Part shown: positions 1 to 7,086 of the stretch, one piece after another | Layout: every line of letters starts with the position of its first letter | Numbering within the stretch: the stretch's first letter is position 1 | Assembly: GCA_016839845.1 (NCBI GenBank) | Contig: JAEOTL010000148.1 | Coordinates: forward strand, 1-7,086 | Length of the DNA stretch: 7,086 nt | Direction: 5' to 3' | Origin: Promethearchaeota archaeon | GTDB lineage: Archaea; Asgardarchaeota; Lokiarchaeia; Sigynarchaeales; SOKP01 | Translations under genes and position numbers: made by a program | The notes under the pieces: generated by a model | Seen by the model: the letters and a program-made list of their open reading frames with translations, nothing else | What the model was told of the DNA's origin: nothing | The model's database searches: none

Positions 1-3000
1 ATCTAAAAGAATCAAGTGGATTTACTCTGGATTCTACTTCTTACAATCAGAATGGTTTAATTACAGGAACAGTAATACGGCCATCTGCAGGTCAAATCAG
101 TAATGCATATAATTATGGAACTGATGGTACTTTCAATGTGGGAGATCCTGCTGATGGTCATCTTGATTTTGGTATAGAAAGTTTTATGGTTAGTATGTGG
201 ATAAATGTTGATATAAATACGGGGGCAGTACAAATTCCTCTTTATAAGGGTGCCTCTAGTACTTTTGACCCGGGGTATTGTTTTGGAACTACAACGGCAG
301 GTGATAGTATGTCATTTCATATTACTGATGGAAGTAGTAATGTTGGTAGCCCTAGCGCCAGTGTAACTTTCGATTCTTGGATATATATCGTTGGAATAGT
401 TGATAGAACTAATGATCGAATTCGGATCTATAAAAATGGTACCGAAGTTCAAACGGGAACAGATATAAGCACAATCCTTAGCATAGATGGTGATATAGAT
501 TTTCAATGTGCTAATCCTAGTTATGATTTCGACGGACTTCTGGATGAAGTGAGGGTTCTAAATGAAACTCGTTCATCTACTTGGATTAAGACGGAATATT
601 ATAATCAATATGATCCTAATTCTTTTTACTCCATAGGAGCAGAACAAGGCTTACCGGGAGTAAAGTATAGCAATCTTCAAGTTAATACGATTGATCTGTA
701 CGGAAATTCCCTCCCTTTTACAAATGTTTCAATATACAATCAAACTAAACGAATAAGAAGTAACCTTACTGATTCTAATGGTAATGCTTCATTCATGAAT
801 TTAATTCAGGGAGAATATAACTTTACGGCAACAATAATATCAGATATAGGAAACCATATAGAAACCGTAAATGTTACATCTAAAGCTATTTCAATTAATC
901 AATCGTCTCAAATTGTCACCCTGATTTGTGATGTAGGATCAAATTTCATCAAAGTTGTTGATATTGATGGCACATTCATTGATAGTGGGTGGATTGTAGT
1001 TGGCAATAGCAGTCATGAACTGCAAAATTGCACGATTGATAGTAATGGAAACGCACGATTTTGGTGGGTAGAAACCCTTCCATATCAATATAATTACACA
1101 ATCTTCTATCAAGATATTAATTATGAACCACAAATTATTCGAGTTGGTTCAGGGGATATAACAACTCCAAATTCTTCAATTCAAGTCCAAGTGAGTTTAA
1201 CAACAATTAACTTTGATATTCAGACCCTTATCACTAAAGAAGCGGTTGGTGGTGTTAAATTACTATTAACTGCTACTAATACGGGGAAAAGTATTGTTAA
1301 CCTAACTTCAGATAACGATGGGAAAGCAACATTAAGATGGTTGAATTCTTCAGGGATAAATGGGAATTATTCTTTACAACTTGTATTCTTTGGTGCTTTG
1401 AGGTTGTTTAATATGACATCTATCACTAAAACGTTAGTTTCAGAAGTTAATTTTACAGTGTCTGCCACTGAGGACTTTTCGATATACATTCAAGTTTCAT
1501 TAGAAAATTATGAGACAGAACTTATCTCTTTAAATCCAACAGATTATATTTCTGTTAAATGGGGCTCTCAGTTGATTCTAAGGATGTTATTTAATGTCAG
1601 TAAAGCAATAGGTGCTGAAAGCTTATTAGGGCCTACTTATAGCGATGTAATGTTATATGAAATATATAAGGGCGCAGATCTTATTCATTCTGGAAATCTA
1701 GGCATTGAAACAGATTACACAGGAACTCACTATTCACTTATCAACACAGAAAGTTTGGAAAGTGATATAACTTATTTGATTTTTATCTCAGCTCAGAAAT
1801 CAGGGTATTCAATCCCTCAAGATTTCCTTCTGCAATTAAGTATATTGAAAAACCAATTAATTCTAAACCAATCGCAAAATGATGATTCAGTTCAATCAGT
1901 TTATTGGGCAGACAGTATCGATTTCTCGGTAAAACCTTACGGTGAAATTTCTGAAAGCTTTACTACTGAAACTAACATTTATCAAAGTATAGATCATAAT
2001 TTTAAGTTCTCTCTCCCAGATATTAAGACTAATTGGAATCTATCCCAAATTATATTCAATATTTATAACATTTCATGGAATGTCAATATGTCTGATATTA
2101 ATTTATCCATTTTAGATCCCTTTGGTGTTAATAGAGTATTTAACGTTTCCAATCATGCAGGATGGGATTATAATCTTGGTGTTTGGGAAGGCATAACCTT
2201 AAATTTGAACCAAGGTAGCCCAAGCGCTAACAATAATTTTGAGTTTTTGATTAGTGGTACATTTGATAACACGATAGATGTTATTGCCGATGCATGCTTT
2301 ATTAGAGATCATATTAATATTCAATATGTAAAATACAACATTTCAAACTCAATTTCCATTTTATCAGAATCTGAAGGGTGGGCAATTAAAAATATCACTT
2401 TTCTTATTCAAAATTGCTACAATACCACTTCCTGGCAAAAAGTCAATTTATCAACTCTCACGAATTTAAATATTTCTACTGTTGAGGGAGTTAAATATTC
2501 GCTTTTTTCTGGGGATTCTGAAGGGAATGGGGTATTAATTATAGATGACAGAATAATTTATCCGGAGGATAATCAATATTTATTTACAGTCGAGAGTAAT
2601 CCATCCATTATCTTTGAAGCAATGATAACGGTTGAGTATGTTCAAGTATTTTACCAAAATCAATATTTAGAAACTTTAAATACAACAAATATACACCAAA
2701 ACATATCTAATGGAGGAAGTTGTTTATTAAGCTTAAATGATCATGAATGGGAGGAGAGTTATGCACAACTTCTAATTAATGGAGTAAGAAATGGGAGTCA
2801 ATACTTCCTTCCCTCTCAAGTTGCAATGAATGTTACGATTGGTGGTCAGATATTTCAAATTTCGAATACTCTTATAGGTCAGGGGACATTTTCCTTAAAT
2901 AACTTAACCAAGGATACATTGTATACTTCTGTTATAGAAACTAATCAACCAGTTAACTTTACTCTTTCCTTTAAAATTAGTTATTCACGAACAGTATATT

Positions 3001-5285
3001 ATGAGACTTTGGGTGTGGTCACATATAAAATAAGAGAAGCACCTAATATATATGGAGCAGTTGAATACTATCCTGATTTGGGGTATTATTGGGAAGCAAT
3101 AGACACTTCATTGATCGATTCAGACCATTACACCATACAATTTTCCGTAAATAAAGAAAGTTATATTTCAGCAATAAAAAATTTGGATTTCATAATAATG
3201 AACCGTTTAACCTTAATAAATGGAGAATCGACAATAGCTAAAGTGATCGAATCCATGTACGTTAGAGATTATATCAACTTTACATTCTTATATACGGATA
3301 CTTTAACAAGGGCGAGGATTACAGATTTAACAACACAAAATTACATGTGGGAGAGATATGATCAAGAAGGGAATGTAACCCATCGAGGGGAAGGGACATT
3401 AATTCAAAAATATGATGGGGCTGTTGTTTTAGATTTTGACTCTGAAAACAGAATCATTGGGGAGTACCTAATAATATTAACACTGGATAAGGATAACTAT
3501 GAGTATAAAAATGCTATGCTTCGTTTATCTATTAAGAAACGAGAACTTGAATATTCTTTAAGTAATGCTTTTGATAATTATCAAACCAGGGTTGTTCAAG
3601 GGAATATAATCCCAATCAAAATAAACTTAACTGATCCTACGAGAGAAGGGATCCCTCTGTTAAATGCCTCTATAATATTGACAATAAAAGGAAATGAATA
3701 TCAATTTATTGAACTTACCAATGGTATTTACGGACTTAATTACTCTACAAGCAGCGTAAATGCATTTTTCAGCTCAACAACTCTTACGGGAATTATCAAT
3801 ATCTCAAGAGAAGATTATTTCTCAGAAGAATTATTTATCACGCTTGTAGTAGAAATGGAAGAAATTTTCCCTGGTATGCCTACATTTTACTTTTTAATAA
3901 TCGTATTTGCTATTATTGCTGTTGTCGGGAGCATCGTTGGGTATCGAGTCTATAAAAATGCGACTATCCCAATCTTTGTTAAAAATGTAAGAGAACTAAA
4001 AAAGAGAATTAAAGACGGCAAAGAAGTCTCAGAATCGCTCCTATATTCCCCAAAAGAAGTATTTGTGGGGGAGATAGTGAAAGATAAATGGAGCAATATA
4101 GGGCTTTCGATGGAAGATATCTTGGGTCTTGAAATTAAAAAAAGCAAAAAGATCCCAAAAATAACGCGTATCGAGAAGGAACATGAATTTAAACCATTGG
4201 GACTAATATTAATGAAATGGGATGAGAGAATAGGAGCAGAACTCTTAGGGAAATATCCTGAAGATGTAGATGTGTCTGACAAAACTTTGATGCAAATCTA
4301 TGGAACCCATGAATACAGTGGGGAAAAAGGTTTAATTACATTGTTAAGGGGGAACTTAAGTGTCTTATCATATTATACTGGCCCCGAAACAGGTTATTAT
4401 ATCATCTTAATTTTAAGTGAAGAGGATGATCCTGATATGTACGAAGGAGCAATGGCAAATGTCGCACCAATAATACTACACAACCTTGAAGATGACCTTT
4501 ATCTAGAAATGGTGCCCCTAATTTTCCAACGGCTGTCAGTCTATCCCTCTCTTTCTTACGAACAAAATCTTATCTATTATTATCAGGATTCCATCAAACT
4601 AATGATCATCAATATCTTAAGAGATTATGGCGTAATTACTAAGTCGGAATTGAACATATGGGTGAAAGATAGAGAATTAGAAGGTATCATTGACTTAGAA
4701 TCGATATTGGCTGAACTTATAAAAATTGAAATGATTAGAGTGGCTTCGGTAAAAGGAATTCCGTCTGAAGTAATCTTTCTTACAAAAGATATTTTTATGC
4801 TCCGTGTTCCACCAGACAAACTATTTAGAGATCCAACGAATAATGGTCTCCCAGCTCAGTTAGCTAAGTCATATCAAGATGAGGTTAAGAAATTCTTCAA
4901 CACATATTATCCAACGGAAGAAGATACGATTAAGCTTCTTGATAGGTTAATTGAACCAGAAGTTTATGAAACAGTACGATTATTGAGAACAGCGATAGTT
5001 ACGATGAAAGATTTCGAGAAATTAAAAAATAAAGGAGTTAGTGATATTTATAGCGTATTGAGAAAGTTATGGGATATAAATTTGATAAAAGTCTTTAAAG
5101 ATGAGAAGGGAGTAGAGTATTATACCCTCCTTACCGACTTTCATATAAATATCATTTTTCCAAAATACTTGTTAAACGTAATTAAGGTTTTGAACGAACA
5201 AAAATCTAAATCCGACAAAGTTCTAATCCAGTATCTTAATATACTTGAAGAAACCTATTTCAACTTAAAATCAGAAGAAAAGTAA
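1..5285 (+). CDS. Giant single-pass surface receptor-like protein: LamG, Ig-like stalk, TM helix, longin-like and winged-helix cytosolic tail (5' partial)
   Basis: The frame is open from the first full codon (nt 3, residue 1 here) to TAA at 5283-5285, giving 1760 residues, so the true start is upstream. The GTG at 138 lies inside the LamG fold and is not a credible start. Residues 1-32 match the DUF2341-LamG linker of the downstream gene. LamG runs to about 212 and ends with FDGLLDEVRV (176-185) and WIKTEY. Three small beta units with DSNGNA, DSNGNA and DNDGKA turns follow (about 226-465). A beta-rich stalk with degenerate repeats extends to about 1288. The membrane helix is about 1295-1314. 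The cytosolic tail has a basic juxtamembrane stretch, a longin-like domain (about 1399-1520) and winged-helix-like domains (about 1529-1604 and 1654-1715). About 41 sequons lie before the helix and two after. LamG and DUF2341 modules are known in adhesion and glycan-binding surface proteins; a role in sensing or adhesion with cytosolic signalling is inferred. I do not recognise the full-length protein as a named family. Confidence 0.9.
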   Translation, partial: LKESSGFTLDSTSYNQNGLITGTVIRPSAGQISNAYNYGTDGTFNVGDPADGHLDFGIESFMVSMWINVDINTGAVQIPLYKGASSTFDPGYCFGTTTAGDSMSFHITDGSSNVGSPSASVTFDSWIYIVGIVDRTNDRIRIYKNGTEVQTGTDISTILSIDGDIDFQCANPSYDFDGLLDEVRVLNETRSSTWIKTEYYNQYDPNSFYSIGAEQGLPGVKYSNLQVNTIDLYGNSLPFTNVSIYNQTKRIRSNLTDSNGNASFMNLIQGEYNFTATIISDIGNHIETVNVTSKAISINQSSQIVTLICDVGSNFIKVVDIDGTFIDSGWIVVGNSSHELQNCTIDSNGNARFWWVETLPYQYNYTIFYQDINYEPQIIRVGSGDITTPNSSIQVQVSLTTINFDIQTLITKEAVGGVKLLLTATNTGKSIVNLTSDNDGKATLRWLNSSGINGNYSLQLVFFGALRLFNMTSITKTLVSEVNFTVSATEDFSIYIQVSLENYETELISLNPTDYISVKWGSQLILRMLFNVSKAIGAESLLGPTYSDVMLYEIYKGADLIHSGNLGIETDYTGTHYSLINTESLESDITYLIFISAQKSGYSIPQDFLLQLSILKNQLILNQSQNDDSVQSVYWADSIDFSVKPYGEISESFTTETNIYQSIDHNFKFSLPDIKTNWNLSQIIFNIYNISWNVNMSDINLSILDPFGVNRVFNVSNHAGWDYNLGVWEGITLNLNQGSPSANNNFEFLISGTFDNTIDVIADACFIRDHINIQYVKYNISNSISILSESEGWAIKNITFLIQNCYNTTSWQKVNLSTLTNLNISTVEGVKYSLFSGDSEGNGVLIIDDRIIYPEDNQYLFTVESNPSIIFEAMITVEYVQVFYQNQYLETLNTTNIHQNISNGGSCLLSLNDHEWEESYAQLLINGVRNGSQYFLPSQVAMNVTIGGQIFQISNTLIGQGTFSLNNLTKDTLYTSVIETNQPVNFTLSFKISYSRTVYYETLGVVTYKIREAPNIYGAVEYYPDLGYYWEAIDTSLIDSDHYTIQFSVNKESYISAIKNLDFIIMNRLTLINGESTIAKVIESMYVRDYINFTFLYTDTLTRARITDLTTQNYMWERYDQEGNVTHRGEGTLIQKYDGAVVLDFDSENRIIGEYLIILTLDKDNYEYKNAMLRLSIKKRELEYSLSNAFDNYQTRVVQGNIIPIKINLTDPTREGIPLLNASIILTIKGNEYQFIELTNGIYGLNYSTSSVNAFFSSTTLTGIINISREDYFSEELFITLVVEMEEIFPGMPTFYFLIIVFAIIAVVGSIVGYRVYKNATIPIFVKNVRELKKRIKDGKEVSESLLYSPKEVFVGEIVKDKWSNIGLSMEDILGLEIKKSKKIPKITRIEKEHEFKPLGLILMKWDERIGAELLGKYPEDVDVSDKTLMQIYGTHEYSGEKGLITLLRGNLSVLSYYTGPETGYYIILILSEEDDPDMYEGAMANVAPIILHNLEDDLYLEMVPLIFQRLSVYPSLSYEQNLIYYYQDSIKLMIINILRDYGVITKSELNIWVKDRELEGIIDLESILAELIKIEMIRVASVKGIPSEVIFLTKDIFMLRVPPDKLFRDPTNNGLPAQLAKSYQDEVKKFFNTYYPTEEDTIKLLDRLIEPEVYETVRLLRTAIVTMKDFEKLKNKGVSDIYSVLRKLWDINLIKVFKDEKGVEYYTLLTDFHINIIFPKYLLNVIKVLNEQKSKSDKVLIQYLNILEETYFNLKSEEK
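3..641 (+). other. LamG / concanavalin A-like domain of the first gene (5' end missing)
   Basis: The translation opens in the linker that normally follows DUF2341 (ESSGFTLDST, then a GQISNAYNYG stretch equivalent to the usual GKIGxAxxFDG). It then shows the beta-sandwich pattern of Laminin_G_3-type domains: SFMVSMWIN (usual: sftvsaWvk), WIYIVGIVDRTNDRIRIYKNG (usual: WhHvagvyDg...lYvDG) and FDGLLDEVRV near nt 528-557. The closing WIKTEY...DPNSFYSIG matches the closing segment of the LamG in the downstream gene. Such domains bind glycans or proteins. No ligand can be read from the sequence. Confidence 0.82.
675..1440 (+). repeat. Three tandem Ig-like / carboxypeptidase-regulatory-like modules
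   Basis: Three beta-rich segments follow one another, each with a conserved turn before a beta strand: DSNGNASF (nt 771-794), DSNGNARF (nt 1038-1061) and DNDGKATL (nt 1311-1334). The spacing is 267 and 273 bases, or 89 and 91 codons. The D-x-(N/D)-G-x-A turn followed by a hydrophobic strand and an aromatic-rich strand (EYNFTATI, QYNYTIFY, NYSLQLVF) is typical of CarboxypepD_reg or bacterial Ig-like folds used as spacers in surface proteins. The exact family needs a profile search. Confidence 0.65.
1560..3866 (+). repeat. Degenerate beta-sandwich repeats forming the stalk
   Basis: The stalk repeats a closing hairpin four times: a strand, a K/E-x-x-Y turn, then an alternating hydrophobic strand. 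The copies lie at about nt 1767-1865 (QKSGYSIPQDFLLQLSIL), 3126-3218 (NKESYISAIKNLDFIIM), 3462-3554 (DKDNYEYKNAMLRLSIK) and 3786-3866 (SREDYFSEELFITLVVEM). Units containing the first, third and fourth copies span about 306, 294 and 273 bases. Between the first and second copies (about nt 1900-3020) lies a different beta-rich part. There, sequons are dense and strand patterns recur about every 111-116 codons. Family membership is not recognised; the repeat reading rests on alignment by eye. Confidence 0.5.
3885..3944 (+). other. Single transmembrane helix of the first gene
   Basis: About 20 uncharged, mostly hydrophobic residues (FYFLIIVFAIIAVVGSIVGY) are followed at once by R-V-Y-K-N and, a little further on, a basic stretch (KNVRELKKRIKDGK). 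The positive-inside rule places the C-terminal side in the cytoplasm. The sharp fall in sequons after this helix agrees. No other convincing membrane segment is visible in the 1760 residues of this gene present here. Confidence 0.92.
4197..4555 (+). other. Cytosolic longin-like domain
   Basis: The predicted order by eye is strand (LGLILMKWD), strand (GAELLGKYP), helix (DKTLMQIYGTHEY), three strands (GLITLLRG, LSVLSYYTG, GYYIILILS) and two helices (YEGAMANVAPIILHNLED and LYLEMVPLIFQRLSV). This beta-beta-alpha-beta-beta-beta-alpha-alpha order is that of longin domains. It differs from roadblock domains, which start with a helix. Longin domains in eukaryotes and Asgard archaea are linked to small GTPase regulation and membrane traffic. 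The fold call is an inference from strand order, and I cannot name a specific family. Confidence 0.5.
4587..5147 (+). other. Two cytosolic winged-helix-like domains
   Basis: The first (about nt 4587-4814) has helices SIKLMIINILRDYG, ITKSELNIWVKD and LESILAELIKIEMI, then a hairpin ending IFLTKDIFMLRVPP. The second (about nt 4962-5147) has YETVRLLRTAIV, MKDFEKLKNKG, DIYSVLRKLWDINLI, then a hairpin VFKDEKGVEYYTLLTDF. Each shows the three-helix plus beta-wing order of winged helix-turn-helix domains. They are separated by a charged, partly helical stretch containing YPTEED. Such domains can bind DNA or act in protein assembly. In a membrane-tethered tail beside a longin-like domain, protein contact is at least as likely as DNA binding. 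Confidence 0.55.
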
Positions 5286-5413: not shown

Positions 5414-7086
5414 ATGATAGTTTATAGAAAAAGATTCAAAAGATTTAAAAATCGAACCAAATCTATTGGTTTTCTGCTAGTTTTGATAATTCTTCCATTG
5501 ATTTTTAATGCTCTTTTTTTTACCATATATAACAAAAACATTGATAAAGGATATACTGAGAAATTTCCCGATGAAGAAAATCCTATTACTTCTTCAAACC
5601 ATCCAAATAATGCTGATGATTATGAGTATTACAAAACATTAACGATTGATCATACACAAATCTCAGGGACTGAAAATCTTGTTGATTTCCCAGTATTAAT
5701 ATCACTTTTCGATGCGGATCTTCACGATAATACTCAAGCTGATGGGGATGACATTGCGTTTTCTAATGGTTTTCAGTGGCTAGATCACGAGATTGAATTA
5801 TTTAATCAAACCTATAATAGTACACATGCTCAATTGATTGCTTGGGTTCGTATCCCTGTTCTTTTTACATCTTTAGATACTATTATTCGGATGTATTATG
5901 GGAATCCCTTTATGGAAACTCAACAAAATTATGGAGTTTGGAATAATGGCTATGCTGCAGTTTGGCATCTAAGAGAATTTGGAACGGGTGTCTTTGGTGA
6001 ATTTAAAGATAGTTCCTCAAATGGTAATAATGGAAGAGGGGGAGGTGGGTTCCCTAGTTATGTTCCTACACAAATTTCTGGAAAAATTGGATATGCTCAA
6101 GAATTTGATGGGACTGATGATTTTATTAATGTTGTTAGTAGCTCTAGTCTCCGGATTACCGGAACTAGCGTGACAATAGAGGCTTGGGTGCAATTACAAG
6201 AAGATTTAGCTCCACAATGGGGAACAGGAATTGTGGGTAAGGGAAATTGTTACAAACTTTTTCAAGATTGGGATGGAAATAGAAAATTTTCTTTTAGTGT
6301 AGAAACATCAAGCCAAGTATGGGTAAGTGATAGTAACAAACAATTAACAACTTGGTATCATGTTGTAGGTGTATATGATGGGTCTAGTGCAACTATATTT
6401 GTTGATGGAAATGAAGTGTTAAGTAGCCCCCATTCGGGTTCAATTACAGGTAATTTTGATCCCGTCCGGATTGGGCTGGATGATCAAGAGTTTGATGGAC
6501 TTATTGATGAGGTTCGCATTTCTAATGTTGTTCGCTCTGCAGATTGGATCAAAACAGAATATACAAATCAAAATGATCCTGATAATTTTTATTCTGTTAG
6601 TGGGGCTAACAATGTCAATGTTCCCTCAATATTTGATTTTCAATACTTTAAAGAAATCACGATTGATCATACCCAAGTTGTCGGAACAACTGATCATATT
6701 AATTTCCCAATTCTTCTCTCTATTTATGATTCAGATTTGCATGATAATGTGCAACCAGACGGGGATGATATCGCGTTTAATAATGGAACTGCGTGGTTAC
6801 ATCATGAAATTGAGTTTTTTGATCAAAATTATAATAGCACGCATGCTCGATTAGCGGCTTGGGTGTGTATACCAATTCTATCACCTTCAGTTGACACAAT
6901 TATTCGTATGTATTATGGGAATGCTACTATGAGTGCCCAAGAAAATCCCCAAGGTGTCTGGAAATCAAATTATGTTGGTGTTTGGCACCTTGGTGAAAGT
7001 GGTGGTGATGCTCTTGACTCAACTCTGTTCAAGACAAACGGTACATTGATAGGAGGCGTTACTCAACGTGCTTCTGGTCAAATAAG
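5414..7086 (+). CDS. DUF2341-LamG tandem-repeat surface protein, paralogue of the first gene (3' partial)
   Basis: The frame is open from ATG 5414 to the right edge (557 full codons). The in-frame TGA at 5384-5386 has no ATG, GTG or TTG between it and 5414, so this is the first possible start. Residues 1-17 are strongly basic and residues 18-39 form a hydrophobic segment (SIGFLLVLIILPLIFNALFF) without a clear signal peptidase site, so it is a signal anchor or signal peptide. A DUF2341 domain follows (about 73-170; DGDDIAF, RMYYGNP at 159-165), then a LamG domain (about 183-397; VWHL, EFDGTDD at 230-236, FDGLIDEVRI at 360-369). A second DUF2341 comes next (about 412-510; RMYYGNA at 498-504), then the start of a second LamG linker (VWHLGES). 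DUF2341 with LamG is a common pairing in large secreted or cell-surface proteins of archaea and bacteria; binding or adhesion is the usual inference. By analogy with the upstream gene, a stalk, membrane helix and cytosolic tail may follow beyond the window. Confidence 0.92.
   Translation, partial: MIVYRKRFKRFKNRTKSIGFLLVLIILPLIFNALFFTIYNKNIDKGYTEKFPDEENPITSSNHPNNADDYEYYKTLTIDHTQISGTENLVDFPVLISLFDADLHDNTQADGDDIAFSNGFQWLDHEIELFNQTYNSTHAQLIAWVRIPVLFTSLDTIIRMYYGNPFMETQQNYGVWNNGYAAVWHLREFGTGVFGEFKDSSSNGNNGRGGGGFPSYVPTQISGKIGYAQEFDGTDDFINVVSSSSLRITGTSVTIEAWVQLQEDLAPQWGTGIVGKGNCYKLFQDWDGNRKFSFSVETSSQVWVSDSNKQLTTWYHVVGVYDGSSATIFVDGNEVLSSPHSGSITGNFDPVRIGLDDQEFDGLIDEVRISNVVRSADWIKTEYTNQNDPDNFYSVSGANNVNVPSIFDFQYFKEITIDHTQVVGTTDHINFPILLSIYDSDLHDNVQPDGDDIAFNNGTAWLHHEIEFFDQNYNSTHARLAAWVCIPILSPSVDTIIRMYYGNATMSAQENPQGVWKSNYVGVWHLGESGGDALDSTLFKTNGTLIGGVTQRASGQI
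5642..7086 (+). repeat. Tandem DUF2341-LamG repeat, 339-codon period (second copy cut)
   Basis: Unit one starts at TIDHTQISGT (nt 5642) and unit two at TIDHTQVVGT (nt 6659), exactly 1017 bases apart. The RMYYGN motif recurs at the same distance. Over the 89 residues from TIDHTQ to RMYYGN-P/A the two copies align without a gap and share about 60 residues by hand count. The second unit is cut by the right edge shortly after its VWHL linker. The longest identical blocks include DGDDIAF, YNSTHA and DTIIRMYYGN. Confidence 0.88.

Follow-up and report, generated by a model that had tools for sequence, protein, structure and literature searches.

A giant surface protein with a predicted longin-winged-helix tail

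The window analyzed here is a stretch of 7,086 nucleotides from a Promethearchaeota archaeon (contig JAEOTL010000148.1, forward strand). Its main feature is an open reading frame (ORF) on the + strand (positions 3..5285), cut at its 5' end by the window, which encodes a giant single-pass surface protein, 1760 amino acids of which are visible. The nearest relatives of this protein are Lokiarchaeal, and homologs of up to 2990 amino acids have the C-terminal tail in common with it. Residues 57-195 form a LamG (concanavalin A-like) domain (171..587, +; PF13385, E=6.1e-14, over the cut-off). The sole hydrophobic peak (Kyte-Doolittle value 2.75) marks a transmembrane (TM) helix at residues 1295-1314 (3885..3944, +), with an inside-positive charge step, and the 1290 residues N-terminal of it contain 42 N-glycosylation sequons, against a mean of 21.6 and a maximum of 33 in 500 shuffles. 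The peak, the charge step and the sequon excess all bear out an initial annotation of this DNA, according to which one TM helix parts a sequon-rich LamG ectodomain from a 446-residue tail. One TM helix and an excess of sequons fit the layout of a single-pass surface receptor, the topology being predicted. Several long homologs have N-termini that look signal-like by eye; the N-terminus of the window protein itself lies outside the window. A tblastn search against phage records gave no match.

The cytosolic tail of 446 residues is predicted to consist of a longin domain and two winged helices (pLDDT 82 overall, 93 for the winged part alone), and this prediction, run as a check, agrees with the domain order proposed in the initial annotation. 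A helical juxtamembrane segment (residues 1315-1397; 3945..4193), with which the membrane protein ends in relatives that have two genes (see below), leads into the longin domain (residues 1398-1516; 4194..4550). There follow the first winged-helix domain (residues 1519-1602; 4557..4808), a linker helix (residues 1618-1634; 4854..4904), the second winged-helix domain (residues 1639-1718; 4917..5156) and a C-terminal helix (residues 1738-1759; 5214..5279), all on the + strand and, from the longin domain onwards, delimited by structure prediction. The predicted tail has the b2-a-b3-a2 fold of the longin superfamily once, and the three-helix core with beta wing of the winged-helix superfamily twice. 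Of 94 family sequences, 81 have R and 12 have K at the position of residue R1409, in the b1-b2 turn of the longin domain; R1409 is a candidate catalytic or contact residue.

The nearest folds to the individual winged-helix domains are those of ArsR and MarR repressors; the VIA lists for the winged part consist of single repressor domains, and the absence of other families from them is uninformative. Two DNA-binding winged helices, held at the membrane or released from it, would make the protein a membrane-tethered transcription regulator. The repressor folds would suit such a role, as would a distant member in which ArsR-type NCBIfam models match weakly, under the cut-off, in two places. Although the helix before the recognition helix of the second domain has a charge of +2.8, the presumed recognition helices themselves have mean net charges of -0.87 and -0.83 (94 sequences), which makes DNA binding less likely. 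Moreover, the C-terminal parts of NPRL2 and NPRL3 (Npr2/Npr3), subunits of the RagA GTPase-activating protein (GAP) complex GATOR1/SEACIT, are described as making a contact surface in GATOR1 (PMC8534245), and transcriptional regulation would leave the longin domain and the GTPase neighbors described below without explanation. A membrane-tethered regulator thus appears very improbable to us, and we judge DNA binding a less likely mode of action than GAP-like activity or recruitment.

A two-gene module of Asgard archaea, fused in the window

One contig scan, from which the best 80 of 90 candidates were taken, yielded 74 loci, each with Lokiarchaeota or Lokiarchaeia in its title. In 15 of these loci a single ORF encodes both surface protein and longin-winged-helix unit, 48 contain at least one split pair, and 11 show neither arrangement. 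Among these 11, the upstream side is cut or unclear in four (L036, L048, L053, L056), and the other seven (L067, L069-L074) do have a TM protein upstream, with its juxtamembrane part unmatched. In each of 60 split pairs, the surface protein stops after a short cytosolic segment (mostly about 80 residues, up to about 155 in a few loci), and the unit is the next gene. It starts with a 1-nt overlap with the upstream stop in 35 pairs, directly after it in 16, 2-3 nt off in 7, and at a distance of 14 nt and 20 nt in one pair each. In a quick tree of 96 units (19 fused, 74 split), one change separates fused from split (SH-aLRT 99, no bootstrap), and the unit of the window clusters with those of L001-L004. 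In the window protein, an Asgard module that many relatives encode as two genes appears as one; the genes are joined in a single group, to which the window belongs. Tandem arrays also occur, with two fused genes in L018 and four proteins of the window type on one 793-kb contig.

The initial annotation had raised the question whether the tail recurs on other Asgard ectodomains. It does: the unit is found on or beside surface proteins with LamG, FG-GAP and PA14/DUF2341 ectodomains. A split-type surface protein (L067:5152-9993) has FG-GAP repeats (E=4e-14) and no LamG match, and another surface protein (L037:5591-10243) combines PA14 and DUF2341.

As a family, the unit extends across the Asgard archaea. 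A profile built from 20 members retrieves at least 428 proteins, and the unit occurs in 135 of 195 genomes of the Asgard phylum, that of genome G002 (profile E<=0.001). Members with E above 1e-70 occur in seven of 26 loci from six genomes; four of the seven (L095, L097, L098, L100) have the unit after an ORF whose TM starts 95-99 residues before its end. Distant paralogs of the unit with 22-23% identity (L072:18512-19546, L073:18993-20033) are preceded by a gene without TM, and HEAT-repeat-like and PIG-L genes lie near the one in L072. Two short proteins (L126:3821-4207, L127:2947-3324) match the longin part of the unit profile only and are encoded near unit and GTPase genes.

Unit genes often lie beside Arf-like GTPase genes

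The initial annotation had also pointed to small GTPase genes as possible neighbors of the tail. In relatives of the window protein, ORFs adjacent to the unit are indeed richer in GTPases than ORFs further away. For the rank counts in the 74 Lokiarchaeal loci, GTPases were called by a P-loop and the spacing to [NTH]Kx[DE], a rule that overlooks a copy truncated where its contig ends (L014). ORFs with this motif account for 22/117 adjacent ORFs, 6/96 at rank 2, 6/85 at rank 3, 12/74 at rank 4 and 6/220 at rank 5 or more. When loci were thinned to less than 85% identity, the comparison of rank 1 with rank 5 or more gave 12/55 versus 4/117 (p=2.7e-4). Twelve of the 15 fused loci have a neighboring ORF, and eight of these twelve have a GTPase within two genes. 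In two Lokiarchaeal genomes, a GTPase domain is found within 1.5 kb for 4/6 close unit genes, where about 0.1 would be expected per gene. Two GTPase genes adjoin the fused gene in L030. One (L030:12496-13473) encodes a Ras protein (E=3e-40) with an N-terminus that is weakly MP1/LAMTOR3- and Roadblock-like, below the cut-off; the other (L030:2623-4557, - strand) encodes 645 residues, in which a weak Roadblock-like stretch separates two GTPase domains, one Arf-like and one Ras-like. The gene adjoining a split unit at L047:5117-6154 encodes an Arf protein (E=2e-19).

A Gtr1/RagA-like GTPase (L016:992-1921, E=1e-23), encoded beside a ThiS-like gene at rank 4 in one conserved Lokiarchaeal order, was not used as evidence, lying four genes from the module and in a single conserved order. 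Among the motif matches in the Lokiarchaeal loci, that in L037 looks HypB-like by eye.

A second sample consisted of 40 regions picked from the list of unit-bearing genomes by E-value range and spread over genomes. Because the neighbors of five (L125-L128, L140) were already known, the count was restricted to the 35 neighbor-blind loci, where an immediate neighbor is a GTPase-motif ORF in 17 and a member of one Arf-like family in 14. After thinning to less than 70% identity (21 loci), the motif occurs in 7/42 adjacent ORFs versus 0/89 at rank 3 or more (p=2e-4), and the family in 6/42 versus 0/89 (p=8e-4); at less than 50% identity (15 loci), the family figures are 5/30 versus 0/63 (p=0.003). 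All 40 regions, including the five that are not neighbor-blind, give 19 motif and 15 family neighbors (family at 70%: 7/50 versus 0/116, p=1.6e-4). Pfam searches with 10 of the 19 adjacent motif ORFs assigned nine to the Arf family and one (L125) to MobB; the motif match in L137 remained unconfirmed. A same-strand ORF with TM lies within 60 nt of the unit in 13 of the 40 regions, several of these ORFs being cut or having an N-terminal TM only.

According to BLAST, the adjacent GTPases largely form one family with L047:5117-6154, characterized by an N-terminal extension of about 125 residues. In one member this extension matches a clathrin adaptor small chain with E=5e-4, under the cut-off; clathrin adaptor small chains have the longin fold. 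The Roadblock-like N-terminus and the unit longin gave no convincing match (12 aligned columns). Ten of 39 copies of the GTPase family are located within 1.5 kb of a unit gene, where 0.65% of the sequence would be expected, in a sample that is not neighbor-blind, because several of its genomes were chosen after GTPase neighbors had been seen, so that a p-value is unusable. The unit gene lies beside N-extended Arf-like GTPases more often than genes further away do, a statistic at the level of the family and not of the window itself. A specific family of Arf-like GTPases is the likely partner of the unit.

Comparison with NPRL2/NPRL3 and other longin systems

In domain order and best fold matches, the unit is like NPRL2/NPRL3. 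The Foldseek tables give GATOR1 entries, not chains, and we take the matched chains to be these subunits. Membership in NPRL2 was rejected by sequence, the Pfam profile NPR2 (PF06218) having no match over the cut-off in any of 99 Asgard-phylum genomes, 14 of which have weak matches up to E=1. Pfam searches with 15 tails, taken up to E=10, bring up neither NPR2 nor NPR3 (PF03666), the search of the genomes having been made with NPR2 only. The unit differs from NPRL2/NPRL3 in being fused, or closely linked as a gene, to a giant surface protein, and in adjoining Arf-like GTPases, whereas NPRL2, in complex with NPRL3 and DEPDC5, is a GAP for RagA. The unit has two winged helices; the literature on NPRL2 gives a triad, or two or more. 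NPRL2:NPRL3 is described as acting on Rag GTPases, with Arg78 on the longin loop of NPRL2 as catalytic arginine (PMC8534245); R1409 of the window protein is R or K in 93/94 family sequences, its equivalence to Arg78 not being established.

That some Asgard longins are like NPRL2 is not new, because an asCOG category of Asgard genomes is called "NPRL2-like longin domain" in a figure legend (PMC9834061). This category, which may or may not be our unit family, likens a class of Asgard longins to NPRL2, and the part of the source seen makes no mention of fusion or linkage to surface proteins. For Asgard together with GATOR1, the literature search returned one paper, on bacterial polarity, and a limited literature search found no description of the surface-protein fusion or of the Arf-like neighbor family.

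Another related system is the longin-DENN Arf GAP C9orf72:SMCR8, whose paired longins are reported to cup an Arf GTPase, ARF1 (PMC8213707). It has DENN domains where the unit has winged helices. We know of no transmembrane ectodomain in this complex. SRPR alpha/beta, which brings a longin-type SRX domain together with an Arf-like GTPase, is a further analogue. Lokiarchaeota itself has a Roadblock-Longin protein, whose longin domain is, by its title, PDB entry 8yqg.

Asgard longins fused to Vps28-C and adaptin-appendage modules (PMC10936438) follow a similar fusion principle with different partner domains, and are not described as tails of giant surface proteins in the sections of that paper available to us. 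They lend some weight to the idea that the tail serves sorting or anchoring, with longin and winged helices tying the surface protein, as cargo or anchor, to trafficking or ESCRT-like machinery and the GTPase acting on the unit instead of being regulated by it. The best Foldseek row of the winged part, ESCRT-II 2zme_A (E=4.5e-3), points the same way, as does the location of the other 29 of the 39 GTPase-family copies, more than 1.5 kb from a unit gene or on other contigs. The TM-scores of the ESCRT-II match are low, however (0.21/0.23), and no ESCRT gene is among the neighbors that were run through Pfam, most neighbors not having been run. We regard a sorting tail as unlikely, but as deserving to be kept in mind.

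A model for coupling of the surface protein to GTPases

The reading that we favor, and consider probable with appreciable room for doubt, is that the surface protein is coupled to a GTPase-regulating platform, of which its tail is the fused version. The adjacency of the unit to Arf-like GTPases suggests that GTPase switches may be directly connected with the cell surface. In this model, the unit would dock on the juxtamembrane segment of the surface protein. Its longin, possibly in combination with the N-terminal extension of the GTPase, would form a platform that holds or switches an Arf-like GTPase, and what the ectodomain binds would determine the place of action of the GTPase, and perhaps its nucleotide state. 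Such a platform could be likened to the longin-based GTPase regulators NPRL2:NPRL3 and C9orf72:SMCR8. More tentatively, and with doubts that outweigh our confidence, we propose an archaeal transmembrane receptor that signals directly to an Arf-like GTPase via an NPRL2/3-like subunit, which is shared, split or fused, among many different ectodomains; binding on the outside would alter the state or the place of the GTPase. A receptor-like tail linking the outside to a GTPase had been put forward in the initial annotation; the link to GTPases has gained from the adjacency in relatives and from the fold, while a receptor role, ligand binding and recruitment are parts that we infer.

Several observations weigh against GTPase coupling. 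Coarser thinning of the Lokiarchaeal loci weakens the enrichment (7/33 versus 4/75, p=0.018 at 70% identity; 4/15 versus 2/32, p=0.07 at 62%), and rank 4 is also rich in GTPases, mostly the Rag-like gene of one conserved order. In the neighbor-blind sample, 18/35 loci have no adjacent GTPase motif, and in the two Lokiarchaeal genomes 0/7 distant or partial unit paralogs lie within 1.5 kb of a GTPase domain. No GTPase neighbor is seen in the subclade of the window, where nine neighboring ORFs are visible in L001, two in L004, one in L002 and none in L003; the upstream side is out of view in these four loci, whose contigs all start inside the gene, as are most of the neighbors of the window gene. 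A relationship between the extension of the GTPase and the unit longin is not supported by hhalign (P 0.048 when a narrow set was used, 0.41 when the set was broadened). The superposition of the whole chain 8fw5_C on the tail is poor (TM-scores 0.20/0.22, rmsd 23), and no GATOR1 entry is among the best 50 of 896 Foldseek matches of the winged part alone, which leaves the domain order, the longin and the Foldseek rows for the tail as a whole as grounds for likening the unit to NPRL2. Finally, 34/74 loci adjoin a RuBisCO-like cluster and 19 a methyltransferase cluster, each cluster taking its name from a single member. Because these are likewise constant neighbors of the split loci, some of the adjacency is plain conserved gene order.

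Were it conserved gene order only, the protein could be an adhesin, or belong to the envelope, with a cytosolic tail that serves as a structural anchor. The LamG/Ig-like ectodomain would fit this, non-GTPase neighbors are as constant or more so in one syntenic group, and Lokiarchaeal genomes are rich in GTPases anyway (58 and 81 domains among the matches listed for two genomes). But GTPase adjacency recurs across differing gene orders, also where no TM protein lies beside the unit (L104-L110), and that of the Arf-like family persists at 50% thinning, which makes a purely structural anchor improbable.

Asgard archaea are rich in small GTPases, longin and roadblock proteins, and the signals upstream of them are an open question. 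The surface protein with its longin-winged-helix unit, on the one hand, and the Arf-like GTPase family, on the other, form a concrete and testable pair. The joining of longin and winged-helix domains has been suggested to date possibly to the eukaryotic stem (Zhang et al., 2012; PMC3521125). A similar architecture that is Asgard-wide would put it earlier, if homologous and not convergent. If the more tentative receptor reading is true, both a pathway from receptor to small GTPase and the longin-winged-helix design seen in GATOR1 would have been present in archaea before eukaryotes.

Other genes at the loci

The RuBisCO-like cluster mentioned above includes a gene of the RuBisCO large-chain family (L016:11505-12818, E=2e-51). 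In L030, a gene on the - strand (L030:11475-12332) encodes 286 residues without Pfam match, and its cluster adjoins the module directly in five fused Lokiarchaeal loci. The window itself contains a second gene of similar kind downstream of the surface protein (5414..7084, +; 3' end cut by the window), with a hydrophobic N-terminus that is signal-like by eye, LamG and DUF2341. It shares 80.7% identity, across 508 residues, with the N-terminal part of P0002, a protein that carries the tail type of the window protein.

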